22,914 bases of DNA from positions 1-22,914 of the IMG/VR virus record IMGVR_UViG_3300044729_000354, one strand, 5' to 3'. The stretch comes from a virus. Under the pieces are notes generated by a model. It did not search any database. It was not told the DNA's origin and saw only the letters and a program-made list of their open reading frames with translations. Made by a program: the position numbers and the translations under genes. Below are positions 16,463 through 22,914 of the stretch, piece by piece. Every line of letters begins with the position of its first letter. The stretch's first letter is position 1.

Positions 16463-17716
16463 TCACCAACCTATTGTTGTGTCTAGGACTTCGTACTCTT
16501 CTTCATTCAAGTTCTGATTCCAATCTGCTACCTGTATTTGATCAATGTAACTAACAGCATCTATTAAGTCATCATGAGTCTTGCTATCAGGAAACTGCAT
16601 CAGTTGGTCTATAAACTTGTTATTCCAATCAGCTTCTTTCAGTACAATCCTACCATGTTCAAATCGTCCTTGTAGTGACCAAACAATCCTATCTGTCTTC
16701 TTCTTATTACCATGTGTTAACTCTTCAATACGAGGATAGTAGTTCAATCTCCTCATCAGATCATTCATGTAAGGCATTACTGCATTCTTCAATGCACCTT
16801 TCTCAATCCCTACAGCATTGACTCTGTAGTCTTTAGCAGCCTTTAATATCCTCACTGCTGTTTCTCGGACATCCCATCTACCATACTGTATGTCAGCAAC
16901 CCACCAGCCTTTAGTGTTAACCTTAACAATGGCTATCGCTGTTTCATCCAACTTAGAGTTTTTCGTCTTGTTCGCCTGAGATGAATCCGTAAAACCACAA
17001 AGATCCACCGCAATGAAGTAGTTACCATCTTCAGGTTCTTCGTCAGTAATTTTAATCCATTCATCTTTGAAGATCTCCGACTGTGCAGCCTCAAACGATG
17101 CCATGAACTCTTGTCTGAAAGCAAAGCTAGACATTGATCCTCTAGCAGCTTCAATCTCTTCAGGGTCTAACAATGGATTATCAAAGCTAGTGAAGTGCCA
17201 TGCCTTGTAATGTTGATCCTTACCACTATCACCTAGTTTATACAGTTCATAGAAATGATTTCTACCCATTGGTGTTCCGATGAACATTGCTCTACCCTTC
17301 TGATCCGCTAATGCAGGTCTAAGGATTTGTTCGAACACCTGTGGTTTCATGTCTGCATACTCATCCATCACTAAGTATTTAAGACTAACACCACGCATTG
17401 TCTCTGGTCTATCAGCACCCTTTAGCGATATCATTGCTCCATTCACTAACGTAATCTGCATGTTATTTACATGACTACCTTTGATGACTGGGTGTCCTAG
17501 CTCTAACAGCGTAGTCCACATAATATCTCTAGCTTGTCCCTGCGTTGGTGCTACATACCAGACATGGCCTTTATCAGTCTGTAGAGCCTCTATGATCAGT
17601 GTCCAAGCTGCTAACCTTGATTTACCTGTACGTCTACCAGCAGCGATGATCTTAAACCTTACAGGGTCTTTGAAGACCTCTTGCTGCCACGGTAGTAACT
17701 TAACTTGTAGATCCAT
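16463..17716 (-). CDS. terL: Terminase large subunit
   Basis: 417 residues. Walker A is GRRTGKS at 27-33, Walker B is LVMDE at about 115-119, and the motif III-like FIGTP lies at about 145-149. The nuclease domain shows AVDLCG (D238) and the C-terminal HDDLIDAV (residues 381-388) with the paired Asp residues that bind metal. This is the packaging motor that cuts concatemers and pumps DNA through the portal. The start overlaps the TerS candidate by 17 bases. The length is on the short side for the family but all key motifs are present. Confidence 0.93.
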   Translation of the reverse strand: MDLQVKLLPWQQEVFKDPVRFKIIAAGRRTGKSRLAAWTLIIEALQTDKGHVWYVAPTQGQARDIMWTTLLELGHPVIKGSHVNNMQITLVNGAMISLKGADRPETMRGVSLKYLVMDEYADMKPQVFEQILRPALADQKGRAMFIGTPMGRNHFYELYKLGDSGKDQHYKAWHFTSFDNPLLDPEEIEAARGSMSSFAFRQEFMASFEAAQSEIFKDEWIKITDEEPEDGNYFIAVDLCGFTDSSQANKTKNSKLDETAIAIVKVNTKGWWVADIQYGRWDVRETAVRILKAAKDYRVNAVGIEKGALKNAVMPYMNDLMRRLNYYPRIEELTHGNKKKTDRIVWSLQGRFEHGRIVLKEADWNNKFIDQLMQFPDSKTHDDLIDAVSYIDQIQVADWNQNLNEEEYEVLDTTIGW

Positions 17717-18197
17717 CGTCTTCTTCTTCTTCGTAGTCTATCAAGGTAGTTTCTACTTCAACAGGTTCATGTTCAATCATCTCTACTGGGGTATCATTTA
17801 CTCCAGTTATGTTGATGGTAATGGCTCTAGAGCCTCCACCAGCACCTTTATCCTCAAAGTAACTTACTGGCAACATCCTATCAACACATAGCTTTAGCGC
17901 TGCCATCTGATCCTTATCCTCATCATTAAGAGCCTTATGCACTATCTTTCTGATGATAGCCTGTGAGTGTGTCAGCAACAGTGAAGCTGTTAGTTCTTTA
18001 ATCCTTGCTGCTTCACCAGGAGGTCTACCTCTTTTAGGTCTCTTAATGTACTTCTGTACTTCTTCCTTCTTAGGTCTTCCTCTTTTTCTTTTTTTCGCAG
18101 GCACTTTCTTTTCTTCATTGACTGCCACAACATCCTGGCTGACTGATGAAGGTAGCGAACAAAGATCAGATATAACTTCAGTTTTAATTTCGGACAT
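17700..18197 (-). CDS. Putative small terminase subunit with two AT-hooks
   Basis: 165 residues. The frame includes a GTG at 18200, but GAGG is well placed for ATG 18197. Two AT-hook cores, KRGRPKK (about residues 38-44) and KRGRPPG (about 55-61), lie in a very basic segment. A helical region with MAALKLCVDRMLPVSYFE and an acidic C terminus (DYEEEEDDG) follow. The position right before TerL, with overlap, is that of TerS, which recognises the packaging site. Similar positions in aquatic phages hold such proteins. Without a recognised TerS domain, a packaging-associated DNA-binding protein is the alternative. Confidence 0.68.
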   Translation of the reverse strand: MSEIKTEVISDLCSLPSSVSQDVVAVNEEKKVPAKKRKRGRPKKEEVQKYIKRPKRGRPPGEAARIKELTASLLLTHSQAIIRKIVHKALNDEDKDQMAALKLCVDRMLPVSYFEDKGAGGGSRAITINITGVNDTPVEMIEHEPVEVETTLIDYEEEEDDGSTS

Positions 18198-18328
18198 CAC
18201 TACCTCTATATAGTTTCTCTGCCGGAAGGCAGGACTGTAAGGTGTATATAATTTTATGTATCTACAATGTAGTGTATGACGATAAGTTATATGTCTACTA
18301 TTATTTAGTTTTTATACGATGTTTTGTT

Positions 18329-18337
18329 CATAGCCTA
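18329..18337 (-). promoter_or_regulatory. TAGGCTATG motif just downstream of the late start site
   Basis: The minus strand reads TAGGCTATG here, about 7 bases past the predicted late transcription start (about 18344). Exact copies also lie at 18452-18460, 21126-21134 and 21144-21152, all non-coding. It may be an operator. The protein that would bind it is not known. Confidence 0.5.
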
Positions 18338-18350
18338 CATAGAAGTATCT

Positions 18351-18379
18351 ATTCTAGCATATTTTTAAGAGTTTGTCAA
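18351..18379 (-). promoter_or_regulatory. Consensus sigma70 late promoter
   Basis: On the minus strand TTGACA (18379-18374), a 17-base spacer and TAGAAT (18356-18351), with TGC before the -10 (extended -10). The expected start is about 18344, giving a leader of about 147 bases before TerS. It shares CTTGACAAA and a TAAAAA spacer tract with the promoter at 9542-9514, suggesting one promoter class for the structural genes. Confidence 0.8.
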
Positions 18380-18396
18380 GTTATTTCTTCATATTC

Positions 18397-18427
18397 AGTG
18401 CAGAATCTGTGCTTTAACCAGTGCAGA
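18397..18427. repeat. AGTGCAGA direct repeats upstream of the late promoter
   Basis: AGTGCAGA occurs at 18397-18404 and 18420-18427, 23 bp apart. Related TGTGCAG or AGTGCAG units recur at 18748, 18757, 18819 and 18828, the last two pairs each 9 bp apart. They may be binding sites for a regulator. Confidence 0.45.
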
Positions 18428-18451
18428 TTACATGCAAGAATCATGCCAACA

Positions 18452-18460
18452 TAGGCTATG
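18452..18460 (+). promoter_or_regulatory. TAGGCTATG motif upstream of the late promoter
   Basis: An exact copy of the 9-mer seen near other promoters. A weak rightward extended -10 (TGCAAGAAT ending 18441) lies 11 bases before it, the same kind of spacing as at the other sites, but its -35 is poor. Confidence 0.4.
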
Positions 18461-18522
18461 GCGGGACTCCATTAACATGGTGTCATAGGCTCCGCAGAGG
18501 CTTTATTACTAAGCTATTGATT

Positions 18523-18542
18523 TTATTAGATATTATTAGATA
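18523..18542. repeat. AT-rich 10-bp tandem repeat, candidate unwinding element
   Basis: TTATTAGATA occurs twice in direct succession in an AT-rich stretch about 130 bp from the DnaA-box array. Tandem AT-rich repeats near DnaA boxes are typical of DNA unwinding elements. Confidence 0.5.
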
Positions 18543-18565
18543 GACTGTTTAGGCTTTAGAGACTT

Positions 18566-18630
18566 CCATTTTAGCTTTTTTTTGAGGCTAGGTAGTGTTT
18601 TCCTTTTTAGCTTTTTTTAAGGCTAGGTAG
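18566..18630. repeat. Two 36-bp-spaced repeats with T-tracts
   Basis: Each copy runs from a CC, through TTTTAGC and a 7-8 base T-tract, to GGCTAGGTAG. Copies begin at 18566 and 18602. They lie between the AT-rich repeat and the iteron array. Phased T-tracts could bend DNA. Confidence 0.75.
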
Positions 18631-18670
18631 CACCACAACATTTACACTACAACACAGACCCCTCCCCCTA

Positions 18671-18747
18671 TGTTGATAACCTGTTGATAACTATGATGTT
18701 ATCTGTGGATAACTTGTTAGTAACCTGTGGATAACTATGATGGTAAC
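18671..18747. repeat. Seven 11-bp iterons carrying four DnaA boxes
   Basis: Units start at 18671, 18682, 18693, 18704, 18715, 18726 and 18737, all exactly 11 bp apart, with consensus TGTNGATAACY. Units 4 and 6 contain TGTGGATAA, the reverse complement of the perfect DnaA box TTATCCACA. Units 1 and 2 contain TGTTGATAA (TTATCAACA), and unit 5 is close (TTACTAACA). All boxes share one orientation and one helical face. A role as replication origin or DnaA-responsive switch is likely. Confidence 0.8.
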
Positions 18748-18834
18748 TGTGCAGGCTGTGCAGGTAAAGTGTGTGACTGTGTAGCACCACATAGAGATAC
18801 CTTATCACCGCCTAAGACTGTGCAGCCAGTGCAG

Positions 18835-18850
18835 TGTTCCACGTGAAACT
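18835..18850. promoter_or_regulatory. parS-like site (ParB binding)
   Basis: TGTTCCACGTGAAACT matches the bacterial chromosomal parS consensus TGTTNCACGTGAAACA at every defined position but the last. ParB/Spo0J binds this 16-bp site to load onto chromosomes. No ParA or ParB gene is seen in the window, so host ParB would be the partner. Function is inferred from the match. Confidence 0.7.
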
Positions 18851-18867
18851 GTTGTATTCGAACAACA
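18850..18867. promoter_or_regulatory. Perfect-arm inverted repeat next to the parS-like site
   Basis: TGTTGT (18850-18855) and ACAACA (18862-18867) are exact reverse complements around a 6-base spacer, ATTCGA. This is the shape of an operator for a dimeric regulator. It begins on the last base of the parS-like site and lies about 50 bp before the early promoter. Confidence 0.55.
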
Positions 18868-18919
18868 CTACCGTTCATCATTGGATATTGTCCGCTCGTC
18901 GGATAGACCTGAAATGCCA

Positions 18920-18948
18920 TTGACAACGCAAAATCACCTAGTTAGTAT
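18920..18948 (+). promoter_or_regulatory. Consensus sigma70 early promoter
   Basis: TTGACA (18920-18925), a 17-base spacer and TAGTAT (18943-18948). The expected start is about 18955, some 27 bases before the first early gene. Host RNA polymerase could transcribe the right arm from here straight after DNA entry. Confidence 0.8.
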
Positions 18949-18981
18949 GAACACATCGACAACAAACAAGGAGTAAATCAA

Positions 18982-19101
18982 ATGAGCATACTAAAACAAA
19001 TCGAAATAGCAGCTGCAGTAGCACTAACAGTTTTCATCGCTGGCACTGCTATCGGTTTAATGGTACTGTGCACAGTAGCAAAACTTAGCGGTGCACTGTA
19101 A
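18982..19101 (+). CDS. Small membrane protein, 39 aa
   Basis: The first gene after the early promoter, with AAGGAG eight bases before the ATG. It starts MSILKQIEIAAAVALTVFIA and continues hydrophobic to residue ~34, so it is essentially one membrane helix with a short basic start. No family is recognised. Being expressed first, it could act on the host membrane, for example in superinfection exclusion or host takeover. That is inference. Confidence 0.65.
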   Translation: MSILKQIEIAAAVALTVFIAGTAIGLMVLCTVAKLSGAL

Positions 19102-19109
19102 TATCAACA

Positions 19110-19127
19110 AAGGGTCTTTCGACCCTT
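19110..19127 (+). terminator. 7-bp hairpin after the first early gene, possible attenuator
   Basis: AAGGGTC (19110-19116), loop TTTC and GACCCTT (19121-19127) form a perfect stem. No T-run follows (CAATC), so full intrinsic termination is doubtful. Partial termination or protection of the short upstream message is more likely. Confidence 0.5.
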
Positions 19128-19155
19128 CAATCAACCACCACAAAGGTTATCTATC

Positions 19156-19797
19156 ATGTCAGTAAAAATCAGCGTCACATCAAAGCTTGATGGCATTCGA
19201 TCATGGTCCTTGCAGGCATTGGATACATGTCCGGGTTCGAAGGCTAGCGATGGTTCGCTTGTTGATGCGTGCAAAGGGTGTTATGCAACGGCAGGTAATT
19301 ATTATCGCCCTAATGTCAAAGCACCAAGGATTCACAATCGTGAAGATTGGCAGCGTGATAGTTGGGTTGATGATATGGTCAAAGCTTTAGACTCGGATCG
19401 TTACTTTCGCTGGTTTGATAGCGGCGACATGTACGCTTTAGGGTTAGCAGAGAAAATGCTTCAGGTAATGCAGCGTACACCATGGGTTAAACACTGGTTA
19501 CCAACTAGGATGTACAAATTCACCAAGTTTCAATCAATCATTGACCAGATGGATGCATTGGACAATGTAGTCGTGCGTCGATCATCGGATTCTATTGTCG
19601 GCGAAGTATTGGACGCACCATGGTCTAGCACCATTGCAACAAGCTTCGATGCTGTCAATGTCAAAGTCTGCGAAGCATACCAGCATGAGGGTAAGTGTAA
19701 TGGTTGCCGTGCATGTTGGGATAAATCAGTTAGCACTATTGGCTACATTGCCCATGGTGTTAAAATGTCCAAGGTAATCAAACTAAAGGTAATGTAA
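19156..19797 (+). CDS. GP88-like cysteine-rich phage protein
   Basis: 213 residues. The N-terminal block RSWSLQALDTCPGS and DACKGCYATAGNYY (C25, C39, C42) and a C-terminal cluster C172, C181, C184, C187 (KCNGCRACW) match the layout of the 'gene product 88' family of phages. Seven cysteines in two clusters suggest a zinc or iron-sulphur site. The region between has RWFDSGDMYALGLAEKMLQV and LPTRMYKFTKF, also conserved in the family. The function is unknown. It overlaps the next gene as TAATG. AAAGG lies about 10 bases upstream. Confidence 0.8.
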   Translation: MSVKISVTSKLDGIRSWSLQALDTCPGSKASDGSLVDACKGCYATAGNYYRPNVKAPRIHNREDWQRDSWVDDMVKALDSDRYFRWFDSGDMYALGLAEKMLQVMQRTPWVKHWLPTRMYKFTKFQSIIDQMDALDNVVVRRSSDSIVGEVLDAPWSSTIATSFDAVNVKVCEAYQHEGKCNGCRACWDKSVSTIGYIAHGVKMSKVIKLKVM

Positions 19798-22492: not shown

Positions 22493-22914
22493 GTGAACTA
22501 CTTAGCCACGCATGTTGGCTGTGATGATTGTGGATCTAGTGATGCATTGTCCGTATCTGTTAATGACAAAGGAGAGACTTGGTCACATTGTTTTGCTTGT
22601 GGTACGAATACGAAAATGTATGAACATGATGACATTCTACGACAAAAGCACGACATTCTACGACAAAATCCTACAAAGCCTGCTAAGGTGATTCCAATGC
22701 TAGATGGTAAGTATCAGTCTATACCGCTAAGAAACCTCTCCAGAGATGCCTTAAAAGCCTTTGGTGTGATGATCACTGATGAGGGTGGTGTGGCTTTTCC
22801 CTACTGTGATGCTGATGGTAAGGTCACTGCATACAAGGTAAGACATGATGCAATGAAGACTGATTGCGCCATCAAAGGTGACTGGTCTAAGGCTACTTTG
22901 TTCGGACAGCATTT
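22493..22914 (+). CDS. T7 gp4-like primase/helicase, N-terminal part (cut by right edge)
   Basis: GTG start with GGAG eight bases upstream. The first ~40 residues form the zinc-binding primase domain: HVGCDDCGSS (C10, C13) and WSHCFACG (C33, C36), as in T7 gp4. Then comes a linker with a tandem 7-residue duplication (DILRQKH, DILRQNP), and the start of the RNA polymerase domain (LDGKYQSIPLRNLSRDALKA, then VAFPYCDADGKVTAYKVR). About 140 residues are visible. The full protein would prime and unwind DNA at the phage replisome. Its presence with the origin-like region supports self-directed replication. Confidence 0.88.
   Translation, partial: MNYLATHVGCDDCGSSDALSVSVNDKGETWSHCFACGTNTKMYEHDDILRQKHDILRQNPTKPAKVIPMLDGKYQSIPLRNLSRDALKAFGVMITDEGGVAFPYCDADGKVTAYKVRHDAMKTDCAIKGDWSKATLFGQH
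22631..22668. repeat. 21-bp in-frame tandem repeat in the primase gene
   Basis: GACATTCTACGACAAAA occurs at 22631-22647 and 22652-22668, period 21 bp. It doubles the seven residues DILRQ.. in the linker after the zinc domain, which should be tolerated there. Confidence 0.85.

Follow-up and report, generated by a model that had tools for sequence, protein, structure and literature searches.

What is the role of the phased DnaA boxes that lie between the diverging operons of this virus genome? The window, by which we mean the whole 22.9-kb virus record analyzed here, encodes a terminase and a primase/helicase. The genome is of podovirus type, with a divergent intergenic region at 18201-19155. 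Genes for the terminase, portal and structural proteins run leftward from this region, and those for a GP88 family protein and the primase/helicase run rightward. The large subunit of the terminase was identified on the minus strand (16463-17716; phrog_2, E 1.4e-43), along with a 166-aa ORF with an AT-hook (17700-18200, minus strand) that occupies the place of the small terminase subunit, an assignment based on position only. The first sizeable gene of the early side encodes the GP88 family protein (19156-19797, plus strand; PF17338, E 1.8e-28), and this gene adjoins the slot described below in the window and in many relatives. The N-terminal part of the primase/helicase (22493-22914, plus strand) runs off the window end.

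The DnaA-box array is at 18671-18734 on the minus strand. Two of its boxes (18704-18712 and 18726-18734) are TTATCCACA, perfect DnaA boxes, and two (18671-18679 and 18682-18690) are TTATCAACA, with one mismatch. All four read TTATCMACA on the minus strand and fall in exact 11-bp register. Counting boxes with at most one mismatch that are in phase across seven 11-bp slots gives four here and two in the rest of the window. Dinucleotide shuffling of the whole window (300 shuffles) gave one phased box 299 times and two once, and two was also the maximum among 2000 shuffles of the intergenic region. The four phased boxes are not a chance occurrence, and the original prediction was right that they are genuine and share a single orientation. 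It also described seven units at 11-bp spacing, of which only units 1, 2, 4 and 6 are boxes. Unit 3 (ATGATGTTATC, 18693-18703), an in-register spacer, and unit 7 (ATGATGGTAAC) mismatch the DnaA box at seven to eight of nine positions. Unit 5 (TGTTAGTAACC, 18715-18725) is in register and degenerate, with three mismatches. In alignments, unit 3 shows at most one base change in four relatives and unit 5 is kept in four. The supposed eighth unit, TGTGCAGGCTG, is part of a different repeat of 9 bp, CTGTGCAGG, present in two copies at 18747-18764.

Given 9-bp boxes, the 11-bp pitch leaves 2-bp gaps between boxes, and the window boxes look like a putative cooperative DnaA-binding array. Gaps of 2 bp likewise separate the low-affinity sites of E. 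coli oriC, where they allow cooperative binding of DnaA (PMC6727663). A general spacing scan found DnaA-box pairs at 11, 12, 13 and 20-24 bp in unrelated phages as well, thus phased pairs are not unique to the window family.

The array sits in a slot with recognizable borders. To its left is an AT-rich tandem repeat (18557-18626, period 36, two copies), as originally noted, but the same flank is kept in relatives without DnaA boxes. Copies of TAGCACCACA in direct orientation (18628-18637 and 18782-18791) bracket the slot. Directly ahead of the variable cassette is CCCCTCCCCC (18659-18668), a left border conserved in close relatives, some of which have CCCCGCCCC in its place. On the opposite strand this border reads GGGGGAGGGG and contains GGGNAGGG, the KOPS motif of FtsK. 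The two CTGTGCAGG copies form the right border, and their number varies among relatives.

Searches of viral contigs with TerL and GP88 yielded at least 160 related loci. In four of these (L202, L203, L210 and L211) the array of the window recurs: boxes occupy grid positions 1, 2, 4 and 6, and the non-box units between them are likewise shared. DnaA boxes are absent from the slot in most close relatives (TerL 86-100%), including L121, whose TerL protein is 100% identical to that of the window, and most other relatives carry other site arrays or no recognized site. The left flank (T-rich repeats, TAGCACCACAAC and CCCCTCCCCC) and the right flank are kept by most of the others; it is the insert that differs. 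Phasing is thus preserved in four relatives, but most are boxless, an outcome that the original prediction itself had counted against an origin. The boxes of L017, L135 and L213 are reversed relative to those of the window, and across the family 12 loci have forward boxes only, nine reverse only, and 12 both. Of 60 spacings between neighboring same-strand boxes, 30 are multiples of 11, and there are up to ten boxes in L012.

Exchange of the inserts was examined by comparing left-flank and cassette identity among 43 close relatives. In the pairs L129/L017 and L124/L212 the left flanks are 98% identical and the cassettes 60-61%, a value close to that of shuffled cassettes (58%). The reverse is seen in L126 and L226, whose cassettes are 100% identical and whose flanks are 76% identical. 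The TAGCACCACA direct repeats that bracket the slot may help this exchange.

By eye, the alternative inserts contain consensus sites for LexA (TACTGTATATCTGTACAGTA), Fur (AATGAGAATCATTATC, TGAGAATGATTCTCA), NrdR (CACTATATATAGTG), NtrC (TGCACCAAAGTGGTGCA) and parS (TGTTCCACGTGAAACA), as well as tandem sets of two or three sigma-54 sites (TTGGCACG-N4-TTGCA). We measured enrichment in 94 non-redundant intergenic regions of the family, none retrieved by a DnaA pattern, with a motif list that was compiled after some loci had been read. Each motif was compared with 60 permuted versions that preserve its composition and symmetry (only 11 for LexA, due to its short core). Sites were found for DnaA in 33 regions, LexA in 14, Fur in 24, NrdR in six, parS in 23, sigma-54 in 24 and NtrC in 12, counts that are not independent events because the sequences are related. 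All seven site types exceed every permuted motif. Such enrichment was lacking for the 12 control regulators (CRP, PurR, FNR, MetJ, PhoB, Rex, CIRCE, TyrR, ArgR, IscR, Zur and dif). At least one of the seven types occurs in 76 of the 94 regions and at least two in 44; 18 regions have none, and some cassettes carry just one or two recognized sites. Among 43 held-out loci, sigma-54 (18 loci), NtrC (five) and LexA (three) sites recurred at counts that none of 25 permuted motifs equaled. The result for Fur (seven loci, matched by one of 25 permuted motifs) is weak, and NrdR and parS sites did not recur in these 43 loci. In five loci NrdR boxes are paired in tandem 31-32 bp apart, as genuine NrdR box pairs would be.

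The parS-like site of the window (TGTTCCACGTGAAACT, 18835-18850) is one mismatch from the chromosomal parS site of ParB. Such a site is present in 32 of 45 close-clade regions and absent from 137 kb of flanking sequence. No gene or domain for ParB_N was identified in the 10 relatives searched, so a parS site would need the ParB of the host as its reader, and we rejected both a phage-encoded ParB and a ParABS partition locus. Iterons for a phage-encoded initiator were also rejected, because the alternative arrays match consensus sites of host regulators. Further cassettes were noted: a palindromic ATTGTCGCTAGGATGACAAT (TTGTC-N8-GACAA) with a period of ~38 bp in L126, L129, L207, L208 and L226; GTAAG-N5-GTAAG direct repeats, resembling an OmpR-type response-regulator site, in L124, L128, L133, L142, L199 and L218; and CTAATGTTTAG repeats in L175. 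The LexA sites have the CTGT-N8-ACAG form, which suggests a beta- or gammaproteobacterial host. A search of bacterial genomes for the host gave two weak MAG contigs from unrelated phyla (62-64% TerL) and was uninformative.

The slot lies apart from the predicted sigma-70 promoters. These are TTGACA-N17-TAGAAT in the late direction (18351-18379, minus strand) and TTGACA-N17-TAGTAT in the early direction (18920-18948, plus strand), ~290 bp and ~185 bp from the array, respectively. None of the DnaA (0/82), LexA (0/18), Fur (0/30) or NtrC (0/17) sites is found 20 bp or less from a strong sigma-70 promoter, compared to 10% of random positions, and median distances for these four site types are 208-290 bp. 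A promoter-proximal operator of the cyanophage type was set aside, as these sites neither overlap nor abut a strong sigma-70 promoter. The sigma-54 sites are directional and may be real promoters: in most cassettes they face right, and in the window clade they face left, to the late genes. The window has one of the -24/-12 type, TGTTGGCATGATTCTTGCATGT (18430-18451, minus strand), facing the late genes, and a sigma-54-driven late operon is possible. The site recurs near the same position in several close relatives. Four loci contain NtrC and sigma-54 sites together.

A similar alternation was found in cultured T7-like phages, reached through a blast match of the ladder. The terminal repeats of Berlinviruses have a conserved block of ~72 bp that ends in a C-run and is followed by a cassette. 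This is a DnaA ladder in Shigella phage A7 (MK685668) and E. coli phages P483 (KP090453) and nasanit. In BA14 (EU734171), P151, BSP161, WW1, D226 and others the same place holds an NrdR-like pair, 32-33 bp apart, identified tentatively because of two to four mismatches. The terminal repeats of T7 and T3 have neither the ladder nor the NrdR-like pair. T7-like phages begin replication at their own site inside the genome, thus the ladder is not the Berlinvirus origin. Enterobacter phage phiEap-1 and Klebsiella phage ZK1 have DnaA arrays at one genome end; that of vB_KpnP_ZK1 (L530; OK625527, 60-160; Molineuxvirinae) consists of tandem 21-bp units, each of which contains a perfect DnaA box. A DnaA-box cluster was also seen in a 1.6-kb annotation-free stretch of the 125-kb genome of Lactococcus phage AM1 (L525; KY554768, 14822-14867). 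A synthetic TGTGGATAAC ladder had no blast match among cultured phages, probably due to low-complexity filtering.

We suggest that the slot is a swappable DNA decoy, or sponge, for host regulators, a reading to which we give about even odds. On this reading, a fixed slot separates the divergent late and early units and accepts interchangeable cassettes, of which the ladder would be one. Each cassette would be an array of sites for a conserved host protein (DnaA, LexA, Fur, NrdR, NtrC, sigma-54 polymerase or ParB) and would probably titrate that protein as copies of the phage genome accumulate. In the DnaA version, cooperative binding along one helical face could lower the amount of free DnaA, which would curb initiation by the host and release DnaA-controlled genes. 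NrdR, Fur and LexA versions could derepress genes for nucleotide synthesis, iron uptake or repair. Titration would explain why near-consensus sites are in multiple copies, distant from promoters, interchangeable, and located on DNA that multiplies. We observed the array and its phasing directly, and likewise that site types alternate, that they are swapped between flanks that are nearly identical, and that they lie away from promoters; protein binding, titration and a benefit to the phage are what we infer. Several points count against the sponge: the sigma-54 sites are oriented as real promoters would be, recognized sites are few in some cassettes and missing from 18 of the 94 regions, Berlinvirus NrdR-like boxes are imperfect, the held-out Fur test is weak, and there is no evident reason for titrating parS. 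A broader claim, slightly less probable than even, is that a dedicated slot with rapid turnover exists in at least two unrelated groups of phages, filled with a decoy array for one or more global regulators of the host. Such phages would change the regulator that they neutralize by exchanging ~100 bp of non-coding DNA, with no protein involved.

The original prediction was instead a DnaA-dependent origin, in which DnaA on the array would open the AT-rich repeats and recruit the replisome. The boxes are indeed phased and of one orientation, with gaps like those of oriC arrays, and AT-rich repeats are beside them. A GC-skew minimum is found at the region, but it stays near the slot regardless of which cassette is present, and transcription also diverges there. 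In seven long relatives the cumulative minimum is 0.4-0.8 kb from the slot (the distance in G001 being reckoned across contig ends). Only one of the seven, G007, has a DnaA cassette, so the skew marks either transcription divergence or a replication start that is independent of the boxes. G003 and G007 are near-complete relatives with direct end repeats; the gene families of G003 include primase/helicase, DNA polymerase, exonuclease, thymidylate synthase and ribonucleotide reductase, and matching ORFs are present in G007. DnaA boxes are missing from most relatives with shared flanks and replication genes, and where boxes occur their orientation is not constant. DnaA ladders are also found in the terminal repeats of T7-like phages, away from the origin of those phages. 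The AT-rich repeats are equally present where boxes are lacking, and no DnaA-trio run was seen by eye beside the boxes. What survives of the proposed architecture is the resemblance to a cooperative DnaA-binding array. We rejected an origin as the main explanation and consider it improbable for the window; in view of the boxless relatives, the cassette-independent skew and the Berlinvirus alternation, DnaA-dependent initiation is unlikely to be a trait of the family.

The main rival to the sponge is cis-regulation, with the cassettes as swappable inputs that tie the divergent operons to the state of the host (DnaA-ATP level, SOS, iron, nitrogen or dNTP demand) through looping or sigma-54 promoters. 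We regard this as rather unlikely. It fits the location between divergent promoters, the sigma-54 sites that face genes and co-occur with NtrC sites, and the cyanophage precedents of NtcA sites (PMC3037559) and PhoB sites in S-PM2d (PMC10976474). It fits poorly with sites for repressors and activators in one slot far from sigma-70 promoters, with the free orientation of DnaA boxes, and with the Berlinvirus slot, which is in a terminal repeat away from early promoters. Alternatively, the slot could be a landing pad for recombination or packaging that holds captured host intergenic DNA without function in the phage. Direct repeats bracket the slot, cassettes are freely exchanged, and in Berlinviruses the slot is part of the terminal repeat, all as expected for such a pad. 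However, random host DNA would yield neither clean multi-copy arrays for seven conserved regulators, nor canonically spaced tandem NrdR pairs, nor 11-bp phasing that is kept in relatives, and we consider this explanation very improbable.

If the sponge reading is correct, phages reprogram host physiology by non-coding DNA sponges as well as by proteins, the choice of target regulator evolves through cassette exchange, and non-coding phage DNA records which host regulators repay disabling. A sponge could explain phased DnaA boxes in lytic phages, boxes that annotation tools of the Ori-Finder type may call replication origins. We found no precedent for phage decoy or titration loci in the open-access literature.

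The closest bacterial counterparts are datA and the other clusters for DnaA titration or inactivation in E. coli, where boxes away from oriC bind many DnaA molecules and restrain initiation. Like datA, the window array has several high-affinity boxes (two perfect and two near-perfect), in a slot that is probably not an origin. It differs in being on a phage, on an 11-bp grid, and interchangeable with sites of other regulators. The window array also resembles the low-affinity DnaA sites in oriC of E. coli (PMC6727663), which are 9 bp long with 2-bp gaps that favor cooperative filament growth. In contrast to oriC, the phage sites are strong, near-consensus boxes, relatives replicate without them, and the boxes do not appear to be linked to a conserved unwinding element. 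Cyanophage genomes also bear sites of host nutrient regulators, NtcA (PMC3037559) and, in S-PM2d, PhoB (PMC10976474). Those sites are upstream of individual phage genes, whereas the slot described here is promoter-free and its arrays alternate among many regulators. The Berlinvirus terminal repeats are alike in that a DnaA ladder or an NrdR-like pair alternates after a conserved block and C-run. Berlinviruses are an unrelated phage group, however, and their slot is in the terminal repeat, while that of the window family is between divergent operons.
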